Below are positions 1,418-6,307 of a stretch of 64,000 nt of DNA, piece after piece. This DNA is from Acidobacteriota bacterium (GTDB lineage: Bacteria; Acidobacteriota; Blastocatellia; Chloracidobacteriales; JADJPF01): NCBI GenBank assembly GCA_016213785.1, contig JACQZQ010000118.1, forward strand, positions 1 through 64,000, in the 5' to 3' direction. The position numbers were made by a program, and so were the translations under genes. Within the stretch, counting starts at the first letter, position 1, and every line of letters starts with the position of its first letter. The notes beneath the pieces were generated by a model. The model saw only the letters and a program-made list of their open reading frames with translations, had not been told where the DNA came from and made no database searches.

Positions 1418-2134
1418 TTAATGCTTTCCTGGTTCCATAACGGTTCCTTTACGTTGAGCCATAATATAAGCTTCTAAAGCACGCATTTTAGGGTCATCAG
1501 GGTGTAATTTAGCTCCTCGTGATGGGTTTTCAATACACCAATTAATCATATCCCTAAGTAAAGCTACTTTTCTAAGTTGGATTTGAAATTTAGGGTAGGT
1601 TTCAGGATGTGTATTAGCTGCATGTGGATGGCACATTGCACAGGAAACCCCGTTAGTGCTACCTAGTAATTTATCATCGTGAAATATTTGATCGCCATAG
1701 GTAACTTCTTGGTCAAGCTCTTTTTTCCACATTTGATAATCTCGTACAGAAAAATCTATGGGTTGATCTTGGGTTGAAGCACTAACAGCATTAGTTGGTT
1801 GAGAAACTTTACTACTTTCCTTAGCCGTTAAATTTTCTTTCATCCAAGCCTCTGCAACTTCTTTAGGTTGTTTAGCCAGCCATTGTGCCATTAACTGATT
1901 AGAAACAACTTGCGCTTGATCAGAACTTAAACGCTCACCAGGTTTTACTCCCTTTACTTCTAAATTAGTTTCACCATCGCAGAGTTGGACAACTAAGCTT
2001 TTGCCATCACTTTTAGCAGGAGGATGAGTAGGTAATTGAACTGGGCCTTGTGCTTTAACACTTTGATAAAAAATAACGCTACTTAAAAGACAGATAGCTA
2101 TTACAGAGAGTTTTATTAATTGTAGTCTGTTCAT
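1418..2134 (-). CDS. Secreted monohaem c-type cytochrome
   Basis: A 238-residue protein with an N-terminal signal peptide (hydrophobic residues ~8-24, ending near VKAQG), a low-complexity middle and a C-terminal cytochrome c domain. One CxxCH haem motif, CAMCH, lies at residues 165-169, followed by a His- and Pro-rich stretch. M217 and M225 are possible distal ligands. The C-terminal region resembles the SoxA/TsdA-like cytochrome superfamily, but no specific substrate can be assigned. The longer open frame to 2251 overlaps the upstream gene. AAGGAG at 2141-2146 sits 6 nt before the ATG at 2134 and only 3 nt before the ATG at 2137, so I chose 2134. It is the third gene of a minus-strand operon after a metallophosphoesterase and a dihaem peroxidase; a periplasmic electron-transfer role with the peroxidase is inference. 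Confidence 0.82.
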   Translation of the reverse strand: MNRLQLIKLSVIAICLLSSVIFYQSVKAQGPVQLPTHPPAKSDGKSLVVQLCDGETNLEVKGVKPGERLSSDQAQVVSNQLMAQWLAKQPKEVAEAWMKENLTAKESSKVSQPTNAVSASTQDQPIDFSVRDYQMWKKELDQEVTYGDQIFHDDKLLGSTNGVSCAMCHPHAANTHPETYPKFQIQLRKVALLRDMINWCIENPSRGAKLHPDDPKMRALEAYIMAQRKGTVMEPGKH

Positions 2135-2150
2135 CATAATCTCCTTATTT

Positions 2151-3287
2151 TCAGTAAGATGACAAAGTAGTTTTAGCTGGAACATCACTTGCGCCATCAG
2201 AATCAAGATATTGTGCTGAGACAAAAAGCGGATTGCGGTTCCATAAATCATAACGTTTATTTACTCGTCCGTTGCCTAACACATCTATAATGCCATCACC
2301 TAAGCCTTCTGTTTGATTAAAAGGATCGGGTCGGTTCATTTGCATAGTTAATTTAGGTAAGCCTTGAGGAGCATAAGGCCAAGGCCAAGCTGTTGAAAGC
2401 ATTCCATGAAAATGAATATTGTCTATACGGTTTGATAAAACTTGGTGTGTATGCCCATGAATTACTGTTACTGTTTGAAACGGTTTAAGCAGCGCTTGAA
2501 CTTGTTCAGCATCATCTGTCCAGAAATTCCATGCTTTATAGAGTTTATAAAGTGGAGAGTGTGAAAAAACTACGATAGGAGTTGTTTTAGGGATATTTGC
2601 TAAATCGCGGGCTAGCCATTCTCTTTCTTCTTCGCCTACTTCAAATGGGCTTTGTCGGCCATCATCTAAGCCTGAGACTATTTGCATTCTTTGCATAGGA
2701 GAAAGACCTTTAGCTGTCCAAAAATCTTTTTCATTAACACTCATTAATGTAATAAAGTGAACGCCTTTATGATCAAAAGAATAATATGGTTTACCAAATA
2801 ACTCTTTCCAAAGATCACCTAAATCTAAGAACCAGTCATGTTCCCCAACCATCATTCTAATAGGGGCTTTAACTTGTTTAAGGATTTGTGCTCCTAGTTT
2901 TAGCTCACCTGGTTGAGCAAGTTGGGCTAAATCTCCTCCATAGAGGACAAAATCAGGCTGTGGATCTAGAGCATTAATATCTACAACAGCACGCTCTAGT
3001 TGACGAACAAAACGCTCATTAAGTGTTTTTTCATAAAGATGAGAGTCAGAGATATAAGCAAATGTAAAAGGCTTAGTCTCAGGAGTTGCAGCATTAACAA
3101 CGTCTACTAATTGAAATGAGTGTGGTACAAAAGATTGAGTTGCAGCAAACCCAGCTGCCATTGAAGCCATTTTTAGAAATTTACGGCGACCTTCCCAAAC
3201 ATTTCCTGTTTGATAAAGCTCTTTCATCCACGTTTCACGGTTTTTTAAGTATTCTTGAAGACGTTTTTCCCATTTTAATGGAATCAT
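2151..3287 (-). CDS. Tat-exported calcineurin-like metallophosphoesterase
   Basis: A 378-residue protein with a twin-arginine motif RRKFLK at residues 34-39 followed by an Ala/Met-rich hydrophobic segment, indicating export folded through Tat. The metallophosphoesterase signature runs through D-S-H at 81-83, then GGDLAQ, GEHDWF, FSHSP and HGHTH. Together these form the dinuclear metal site expected to hydrolyse phosphomono- or diesters. The natural substrate is unknown. The open frame could start at 3326, but that overlaps the upstream gene; the ATG at 3287 has AAGGAG at 3297-3302. It lies between two cytochrome c genes in one operon, an arrangement I infer to be a periplasmic redox/phosphoesterase unit. 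Confidence 0.88.
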   Translation of the reverse strand: MIPLKWEKRLQEYLKNRETWMKELYQTGNVWEGRRKFLKMASMAAGFAATQSFVPHSFQLVDVVNAATPETKPFTFAYISDSHLYEKTLNERFVRQLERAVVDINALDPQPDFVLYGGDLAQLAQPGELKLGAQILKQVKAPIRMMVGEHDWFLDLGDLWKELFGKPYYSFDHKGVHFITLMSVNEKDFWTAKGLSPMQRMQIVSGLDDGRQSPFEVGEEEREWLARDLANIPKTTPIVVFSHSPLYKLYKAWNFWTDDAEQVQALLKPFQTVTVIHGHTHQVLSNRIDNIHFHGMLSTAWPWPYAPQGLPKLTMQMNRPDPFNQTEGLGDGIIDVLGNGRVNKRYDLWNRNPLFVSAQYLDSDGASDVPAKTTLSSY

Positions 3288-3306
3288 AGTTATTTTCTCC
3301 TTATGT

Positions 3307-4533
3307 TTATTGTGGAAAAGGCGCACGTGTTTGTGGCTTTAAGGTTTGTGCTTTACGACGGCTTTCGTCGCTAGTAAAAGTTTTCATAAGCTCAACTAAA
3401 TCAGCCATTTCAGGATCACTTAATTTTAATGGTCGCATTCCTCCATCAAGATTTGGGTTAAGCTCTCCACCTTTATTATAGAAAACTACTACATCAAGTA
3501 ATGTTTTTTCTGATCCGTTATGCATATAAGGTGCAGTTAATTCTATGTCTCTTAACATAGAGGTCTTAAATGTACCTAAATCTCTTAGTTGTTTAGTTAC
3601 TAGATAGCGTCCTAGCTCAGAAAATCCTGGCGATAAAGCCATTTCATCTATTAATTGTTCTGCACGTTTAGGATTTGCTGCTAGAGTTTGTTTAGCTTTT
3701 TGTACTAAAGCAGGGAAGTTTTGATCTTTAGCTGCTACTCCTATGTTATGAAATTTGAAATCACTAAAAAATGGTGCAGATTTATTAAAAGTATGACAGC
3801 TAATACAACGAGCTTTGCCATTAAATAATTCCCAACCTCGTTTAGCTGCATCAGAGATGGCTTTTTGATCTCCAGCAATAAAACGGTCAAAGGGGGAGTT
3901 TCCAGAAAGTTGAGTTCGCTCAAATGCTGCAATCGCCTTAGCAATAGTATCTATTGTGATTCCATCTTTACCAAAGACTGAGCTAAATTCTTTTTGGTAT
4001 TCAGCGATTTCTTTAACACGCGCTACAACAGCTTTATGATCAGGCATTCCCATTTCAATAGGGTTAATTAAAGGCAATTTAGCCTGTTCTTCAAGTGATG
4101 GTGCACGGCCATCCCAAAACTGCGCTTCATTAAACATAGAGTTTATTACTGATGGTGAATTACGTGCGCCCTTTTGATTTTTAATTCCTACACCAACAGA
4201 ATTAATGTCTGCTAAGGCTGTAGCAGGGTCATGACAAGTCGCACAACTAACGGTTTTATCTAAAGAAAGCCGTTTATCAAAAAATAGCTTTTCGCCTAAA
4301 GCTATTTTGGAAGCTGTCATAGGGTTATCTGCTGGTATTAACTCGTTCCAAAGCTCTTGAGGTAGCCCAAAAGGTATCTGTGGTTTAAACTCTTGAATAT
4401 TGGGTGCAGCGGTTACTCTTCTTTCACTATTAATAGATATAACAACCATTATTAGCCCAATGGCAAATAGAGAAAGTTTTGTAACTAATAGCTTTTTATT
4501 ACTGTAAAATAGATTATTTATTGTTTTTCTCAT
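3307..4533 (-). CDS. Dihaem cytochrome c peroxidase / MauG family protein
   Basis: A 408-residue protein with an N-terminal hydrophobic segment (~17-33) and two c-type haem motifs, CATCH (97-101) and CISCH (243-247). Family features include LGEKLFFDKRLS before the first haem, FWDGRAPSLEEQA (~139-151) and YMHNGS near the C-terminus. Bacterial cytochrome c peroxidases reduce hydrogen peroxide in the periplasm with electrons from small cytochromes; MauG relatives oxidise protein substrates. I cannot separate the two from sequence alone. The first gene of the minus-strand operon, it is divergent from the ECF sigma gene at 4815, and AAGGG precedes its ATG. Confidence 0.9.
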   Translation of the reverse strand: MRKTINNLFYSNKKLLVTKLSLFAIGLIMVVISINSERRVTAAPNIQEFKPQIPFGLPQELWNELIPADNPMTASKIALGEKLFFDKRLSLDKTVSCATCHDPATALADINSVGVGIKNQKGARNSPSVINSMFNEAQFWDGRAPSLEEQAKLPLINPIEMGMPDHKAVVARVKEIAEYQKEFSSVFGKDGITIDTIAKAIAAFERTQLSGNSPFDRFIAGDQKAISDAAKRGWELFNGKARCISCHTFNKSAPFFSDFKFHNIGVAAKDQNFPALVQKAKQTLAANPKRAEQLIDEMALSPGFSELGRYLVTKQLRDLGTFKTSMLRDIELTAPYMHNGSEKTLLDVVVFYNKGGELNPNLDGGMRPLKLSDPEMADLVELMKTFTSDESRRKAQTLKPQTRAPFPQ

Positions 4534-4691: not shown

Positions 4692-4814
4692 AGAACACGC
4701 CAGTTAAATTTTTATTCCATAATTTTAGCAGACTGGAATATATTTCTTGCTCAAGTGTTATTCTTTATTAGAGGCAAAATATTTTAAGACTCCAAAACTT
4801 GAAGTGATTATTCA

Positions 4815-5380: not shown

Positions 5381-6307
5381 ATGTTAGAAGTAAATTATTG
5401 CAAAAGAATACAAGAACAAATTGCGCTCTATTTAGATGATGAATTAGAAGGTCAAGAAAAAATAGAAGTTCAAACCCATTTACAGACTTGTGAATCTTGT
5501 AAGCAAACTTATGAACAAGTAAAAAGCCTATTAACTCAAATTCATCAAATAAAACCTTTATATCCAGCCCCTATAACCTTACGTAAGTCTATTGAAAAAA
5601 TTCTAGATGATGCACCTAGCCCTTATCAAGCCTCACCTGAACTGCATAACAAGGTTTTAGCTATTTTAGAAACAGCAAAAGAATCAAAGGAAAGAAAAGC
5701 CTCTAAACTTTATTATAAAAAAGTTTTTGTTGCTCTAGCTGCAACATTAGTTATTTTTGTGATGAGTTTTAGTTATTGGATTAATTACAATAAATCTATT
5801 TCAAATAGTACTTCAGAATTTGCTTTAATGGCAGTAGATACACATCTTCGTCATCAAAAAGGTCAGCTACCTTTAGAAATTAATTCTAATTCTGCTGAAG
5901 ATATCTCTAAATGGTTTGCAAATAAACTTTCATTTGGGGTAAAACTCCCAAACTATCAAGAAGTCTCTGGACAAGAAAAGCTTTATCAATTAGAGGGTGG
6001 TAGACTAGTAGGCTTTAAGAATGATTATGCTGCATATATTTCTTATAAAATGCAAAATCGGCCTATTACTTTAGTTGTAACCTCTAGTTCTGTTGCAACG
6101 CCTTCAGGAGGCGAGGAAATTATTTCCAAGGGCTTAACTTTTCATTACTCAGTAATTAGAGACTTAAAAGTAATTAGTTGGACAGATCGTGGTTTAACCT
6201 ATGCTTTAATCTCAGATTTAGCTGAACGTGGTCAACAATCTTGCATTGTTTGTCATAGTGGTACAGAAGATAAAGACTTTATTGATGGTTTAAAGATAAA
6301 ATCCTAA
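5381..6307 (+). CDS. Membrane anti-sigma factor with zinc-finger domain and a C-terminal CxxCH motif
   Basis: A 308-residue protein starting 20 nt after the sigma gene. Residues 1-50 form a ZAS-type zinc-binding anti-sigma domain (C7, then H33-x3-C37-x2-C40). One transmembrane helix lies at ~115-134, followed by a periplasmic domain of about 170 residues. Near the C-terminus, C288-I-V-C-H292 is a complete c-type haem attachment motif, which is not part of standard anti-sigma factors. I infer that the cytosolic domain sequesters the sigma factor and the outer domain may sense redox, haem or a cytochrome partner. A zinc or redox CxxC role is the alternative. Confidence 0.88.
   Translation: MLEVNYCKRIQEQIALYLDDELEGQEKIEVQTHLQTCESCKQTYEQVKSLLTQIHQIKPLYPAPITLRKSIEKILDDAPSPYQASPELHNKVLAILETAKESKERKASKLYYKKVFVALAATLVIFVMSFSYWINYNKSISNSTSEFALMAVDTHLRHQKGQLPLEINSNSAEDISKWFANKLSFGVKLPNYQEVSGQEKLYQLEGGRLVGFKNDYAAYISYKMQNRPITLVVTSSSVATPSGGEEIISKGLTFHYSVIRDLKVISWTDRGLTYALISDLAERGQQSCIVCHSGTEDKDFIDGLKIKS

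Follow-up and report, generated by a model that had tools for sequence, protein, structure and literature searches.

A conserved c-type haem attachment motif in ZAS anti-sigma factors of Acidobacteriota and Myxococcota and its candidate peroxidase regulon

Anti-sigma factors are among the commonest sensors of the bacterial envelope, and the signal is unknown for most of them. To our knowledge, no c-type haem motif has been described in anti-sigma factors of the RsiW, RsrA or ChrR type. The locus considered here lies in a stretch of 64,000 nucleotides (the window) of the 6.4-Mb genome of an Acidobacteriota bacterium and encodes a zinc-finger anti-sigma (ZAS) protein with a complete CxxCH motif, which raises the questions of whether this motif carries haem, what such a haem would sense and which genes the partner sigma factor would serve. 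The explanation favoured here, to which we give an even chance, is that a membrane ZAS anti-sigma factor with an exported, covalently bound c-type haem would sense an oxidant and free its sigma factor onto two promoters, including that of a peroxidase operon. The features on which the argument relies are collected in Table 1.

Table 1. Coordinates of the genes, protein features and promoter-like sites of the locus within the window.
Feature	Position	Strand	Evidence
Mono-haem c-type cytochrome gene, SoxA/TsdA-type domain, one CxxCH	1418..2251	-	PF21342 E 2e-10; conserved neighbour
Calcineurin-like phosphoesterase gene	2151..3326	-	PF00149 E 8e-15; conserved neighbour
Di-haem cytochrome c peroxidase (CCP)/MauG-family gene, two CxxCH	3307..4533	-	PF03150 E 4e-59
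Promoter-like site GGAATAAAAATTTAACTGGCGTGTTC facing the CCP/MauG gene	4693..4718	-	Conserved motif; with partner unique in genome
Promoter-like site GGAATATATTTCTTGCTCAAGTGTTA facing the sigma gene	4735..4760	+	Conserved motif; with partner unique in genome
ECF sigma factor gene, 181 aa	4815..5360	+	Sigma70_r2, r4_2, TIGR02937
Anti-sigma factor gene, 308 aa	5381..6307	+	zf-HC2 match, translation, orthologs
ZAS zinc-finger anti-sigma domain, residues 7-40	5399..5500	+	PF13490 E 2.5e-10; H33/C37/C40 invariant 67/67
Hydrophobic, presumed membrane-spanning segment, about residues 114-134	5720..5782	+	Sequence reading; helix 110-138 in model
His155, possible second haem ligand	5843..5845	+	37/39 in CxxCH group, also 28/28 without CxxCH
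CIVCH, residues 288-292, c-type haem attachment motif	6242..6256	+	C, C, H invariant in 39/39

A sequence-only reading of this DNA had placed the CIVCH motif in a ZAS anti-sigma protein, and both the translation and the PF13490 match confirmed this assignment. The match to zf-HC2 exceeded the Pfam cut-off, the candidate zinc ligands were C7, H33, C37 and C40, and the ZAS signature HxxxCxxC was found in the 308-aa protein, with H33, C37 and C40 kept in all 67 proteins compared. Like RsiW, RsrA and ChrR, which are ZAS (class I) anti-sigma factors, the protein combines a zinc-finger anti-sigma domain with a gene placed right after that of an ECF sigma factor and in the same orientation, an arrangement expected of ZAS anti-sigma factors. 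Its family profile matched RsiW and RsrA in the PDB; the specific models for RsrA (TIGR03988, 36.9 bits) and ChrR (TIGR02451, 23.7 bits) scored below their curated cut-offs of 62.5 and 124.5, respectively. The ZAS domain is followed by a linker, the hydrophobic helix and a second domain with GQQSC-IV-CHSGTEDKDFIDGLKIKS at its end. The AlphaFold2 model (mean pLDDT 85.5) presented helices up to residue 138 and then at 146-159 and 172-180, followed by seven strands (203-278), with the CxxCH on a lower-confidence tail. No cytochrome model matched the protein at E up to 1, so that it lacks a cytochrome c domain by this search. The C-terminal tail would be exported and lie outside the membrane, because a cytosolic ZAS domain is followed by a single hydrophobic helix.

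The conservation of the motif was assessed with orthologs collected by three routes, namely the whole protein, a fragment (residues 139-284) ending before the motif, and a scan with a peptide outside the motif. All close orthologs, including those recovered with the motif-free fragment, presented CxxCH at the same place, and divergent members with CAVCH were gained by searching Myxococcota and the phylum to which L048 belongs. In total, CxxCH was present in 39 of the 67 compared proteins, and C288, C291 and H292 were invariant in all 39; among the positions whose residue kinds were tabulated, the only others so conserved were H33, C37 and C40 of the ZAS domain, G206, W267 and Y274. The two residues between the cysteines varied widely (including IV, MV, AV, VV, LV, FV, LI, FI, PT, TS and SR) while C, C and H were fixed, therefore conservation extends only to the letters needed for haem attachment. 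The columns of C288, C291 and H292 were empty in nearly all of the 28 proteins without the motif. In a tree of the 67 proteins the CxxCH label required one change (support 86/100), and the same split was recovered with everything after residue 280 removed (support 88/81), so the grouping is not produced by the tail itself. Homologues lacking CxxCH, which the sequence-only reading had named as evidence against it, occurred only beyond that one branch, as the 28 more distant relatives, and every one of the 39 subfamily members keeps the motif. The subfamily spans two phyla, Acidobacteriota and Myxococcota, and CxxCH likely, though with several long branches in this tree not certainly, had a single origin. 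A chance motif was ruled out by the complete conservation together with the one-branch distribution.

Regarding the genomic context, the CCP/MauG, phosphoesterase and cytochrome genes are divergent from the ECF sigma gene, which directly precedes the anti-sigma gene. The divergent mono-haem cytochrome and di-haem peroxidase genes had been pointed out before and were borne out by the PF21342 and PF03150 matches, while the phosphoesterase gene between them was missing from that account. The nearest solved structures for the CCP/MauG protein were bacterial cytochrome c peroxidases, and the true start of the cytochrome gene is probably further in than annotated in Table 1. These five genes, for ECF sigma, CxxCH anti-sigma, di-haem CCP/MauG, calcineurin-type phosphoesterase and mono-haem cytochrome, form a module that accompanies the subfamily. 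In fact, 14 other loci (L046, L051, L082, L084, L085, L090, L094, L095, L098, L161 and L189-L192), from two phyla, have the trio of CCP/MauG, phosphoesterase and cytochrome next to the CxxCH pair, in three gene orders: divergent, as a single operon led by sigma (L090, L161), or as a single operon with sigma last (L189-L192). In L080, L093, L040 and L042 the divergent gene encodes another di-haem protein, MauG/CCP-like in its C-terminal half. In L081 and L096 the divergent place is taken by KatG, well over the family cut-offs and with an N-terminus that looked signal-peptide-like when judged by eye. One of these enzymes was near the CxxCH pair in 21 of 35 loci versus none of 18 control loci with other ZAS proteins (Fisher p ~1e-5, for loci that are not independent and controls that are imperfectly matched). 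A peroxidase-type neighbour was absent from the Acidobacteriaceae loci (L052, L086-L089, L162) and from the group of L083, L097 and L099, which counts against the favoured explanation.

Some further arrangements were observed among these loci. Silvibacterium (L162 5795-7284, L052) carries two pairs of CxxCH anti-sigma and ECF sigma genes, neither beside a peroxidase, and in L045 (6526-7802) the CCP/MauG gene next to sigma is broken into two ORFs, by decay or sequencing error. Moreover, sister ECF/ZAS pairs without CxxCH (L150 5901-9096, L154 2231-4681, L093 1393-3874) each face, in divergent orientation, a Tat-type calcineurin phosphoesterase distinct from that of the window (31-33% identity), and L093 also encodes a mono-CxxCH protein. 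These sister pairs are a haem-less parallel of the window locus.

The intergenic regions suggest a link between these genes and the sigma factor. The motif GGAATA-N14-GTGTTA occurred on both strands of the divergent regions, directed towards the sigma gene and towards the peroxidase gene; a -35 box of the GGAA type is a typical element of ECF promoters. Across 10.4 kb of divergent regions, 11 exact and 22 one-mismatch sites were found, versus 0 and 0.025 expected from Markov backgrounds. In the entire 6.4-Mb genome of the window, GGAATA-N14-GTGTTM had two exact matches, both in this intergenic region, and a scan of 27 other genomes gave 15 exact sites, mostly in the sigma/anti-sigma locus. Moreover, in genome G005, where an esterase gene faces sigma, the CCP-phosphoesterase-cytochrome operon is unlinked, on another contig, and is preceded by its own copy of the motif, its CCP being 75% identical. 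The sequence-only reading had proposed that a redox or haem-status sensor controls cytochrome genes through the ECF sigma factor; the control half of this proposal gained much weight from a conserved, genome-unique, two-way motif that also precedes the unlinked operon, and the sensing half stays an inference. Control of the divergent cytochrome and peroxidase genes by the sigma factor is thereby a well supported prediction.

The predicted regulon is wider than the trio. In G018 the sigma locus faces KatG and an extra motif copy precedes a gene of the glucose/sorbosone dehydrogenase family; in L039 a gene of the same family faces sigma itself. An Acidobacteriaceae genome (L086 7573-8213, G198:C2) presented an exact motif copy a few kb away from its sigma locus, where it precedes a cupin gene, and this genome possibly has a different regulon. 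As sugar dehydrogenase-family and cupin genes carry the motif, the regulon is not purely one of peroxidases, which again weighs against the favoured explanation, as does the lack of any site in L088, L089, L092, L052 and L045 in the motif scan. The sites in L084, L085 and L098 had variant -10 letters and longer spacing. One-mismatch scans gave counts near those of a reversed-pattern control in several genomes, therefore a site was counted towards the regulon only when other, independent evidence supported it. The reading of an off-locus site in G033 (L107) as one preceding a vanadium haloperoxidase was discarded, since the protein downstream of it had no Pfam match. A site beside a two-component gene pair in G152 (L109) was left out of the regulon.

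On these grounds a sequence of events can be proposed. In the resting state, the ECF sigma factor would be held by the cytosolic ZAS domain. The haem on the outer domain would be altered by an envelope oxidant, for which H2O2 or an oxidised electron-transfer pool are the most likely candidates, and the change in that domain would free sigma through a conformational switch or regulated proteolysis. The free sigma factor would then fire the back-to-back GGAATA-N14-GTGTTM promoters, one serving its own operon and the other the genes for the exported peroxidase, phosphoesterase and cytochrome, after which the oxidant would be removed by the peroxidase. Candidate signals would be peroxide, redox state, NO or haem status. 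Envelope peroxide or another oxidant is the better guess, ahead of haem status, because unrelated hydroperoxidase families swap at one regulatory position.

The genome encodes a ResB homologue and two CcsB-type proteins, therefore the system II route of cytochrome c maturation is encoded, and the anti-sigma tail may carry covalent haem. The case for His155 as a dedicated haem ligand was weakened by its distribution, since it occurred in 37 of 39 proteins with CxxCH and also in 28 of 28 without it. In fact, the 67 compared proteins showed no evident second axial ligand particular to the CxxCH group, which is another point against the favoured explanation.

This last result can also be read in favour of a checkpoint on cytochrome maturation or haem supply, an unlikely alternative. 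The motif would be a test substrate for the cytochrome c synthase, its haem loading would report whether cytochromes can be built, and sigma would be released in one of these two loading states; besides the lack of a haem-specific second ligand, it is in favour of this reading that the targets are mostly c-type haem proteins and that the maturation genes are in the genome. However, L081 and L096 have as target KatG, an enzyme with a haem that is not c-type, and G018 and L039 have a sugar dehydrogenase-family gene. It is quite unlikely, in turn, that no haem is bound and that the cysteine pair works in the envelope as a thiol-disulfide switch or metal site. CxxC pairs often act as redox switches, but here H292, which directly follows C291, is no less invariant than the two cysteines while the intervening residues are free, and cells that possess a c-type maturation route normally load haem onto an exported CxxCH. 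Release of sigma triggered by binding of NO (or CO) to the haem, along the lines proposed for haem-c Cache domains, which behave like NO sensors when fused to signalling modules (PMC12889525), is very unlikely: a haem with no group-specific second ligand would have a free site for the gas, but the targets are peroxidases, and a family search of the loci examined found no NO-handling genes. Finally, the inverted pair of motif copies in the divergent regions could be taken for the operator of a separate DNA-binding regulator, a highly improbable reading, as the gap between the copies varies from 2 to 35 bases, so that two separate promoters fit better than one operator, single copies precede unlinked targets and sigma genes without a divergent partner, and the motif has a GGAA-type -35 box.

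Compared with known systems, the nearest concept to the anti-sigma factor of the window is the haem-c Cache sensor domain (sCache_heme, DUF3365/Tll0287, PF11845; PMC12889525), an extracytoplasmic sensor in which a scaffold that is not a cytochrome gained CxxCH, and for which it has been argued that a cytochrome fragment was inserted into the Cache scaffold (PMC12889525). The anti-sigma protein differs in having another domain (no match to PF11845 at E up to 1), a motif appended C-terminally and an anti-sigma output, whereas Cache domains act on kinases, MCPs or cyclic-di-GMP enzymes. HasS-HasI and related haem-responsive ECF systems also place an ECF sigma factor under haem-linked control, but haem is there an external ligand perceived through an outer-membrane receptor, and here the attachment motif is in the anti-sigma factor itself. 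When the outer domain was compared with the PDB by fold search, only weak RseB/MucB/LolA-like matches were obtained (E 0.01 or worse); RseB and MucB, the regulators of RseA and MucA, share this resemblance but are separate periplasmic proteins without a haem motif. A full-text literature search, which covered few subscription papers and in which absence is no proof, found no anti-sigma factor with c-type haem, and a study of the class I anti-sigma/sigma interface mentioned neither haem nor cytochromes. If it bears haem, this anti-sigma factor would directly connect the biochemistry of cytochromes with sigma-factor control and, like the haem-c Cache domains, be a non-cytochrome sensor that has gained a c-type haem motif. 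The subfamily might then constitute a new class of one-component envelope sensors, c-type-haem ECF anti-sigma factors that read peroxide or redox state and command, in Acidobacteriota and Myxococcota, a nearly one-locus regulon of exported peroxidases, a proposal that we hold tentatively, at a little under an even chance. The haem motif, the two predicted promoters and the target operon are all defined to the base.

Elsewhere in the window, a collagen-like (GATGATGAN)n repeat lies in the first 500 bases of 3-1343 on the + strand, in frame with a longer protein, and the long ORFs in other frames over this repeat are by-products of it.
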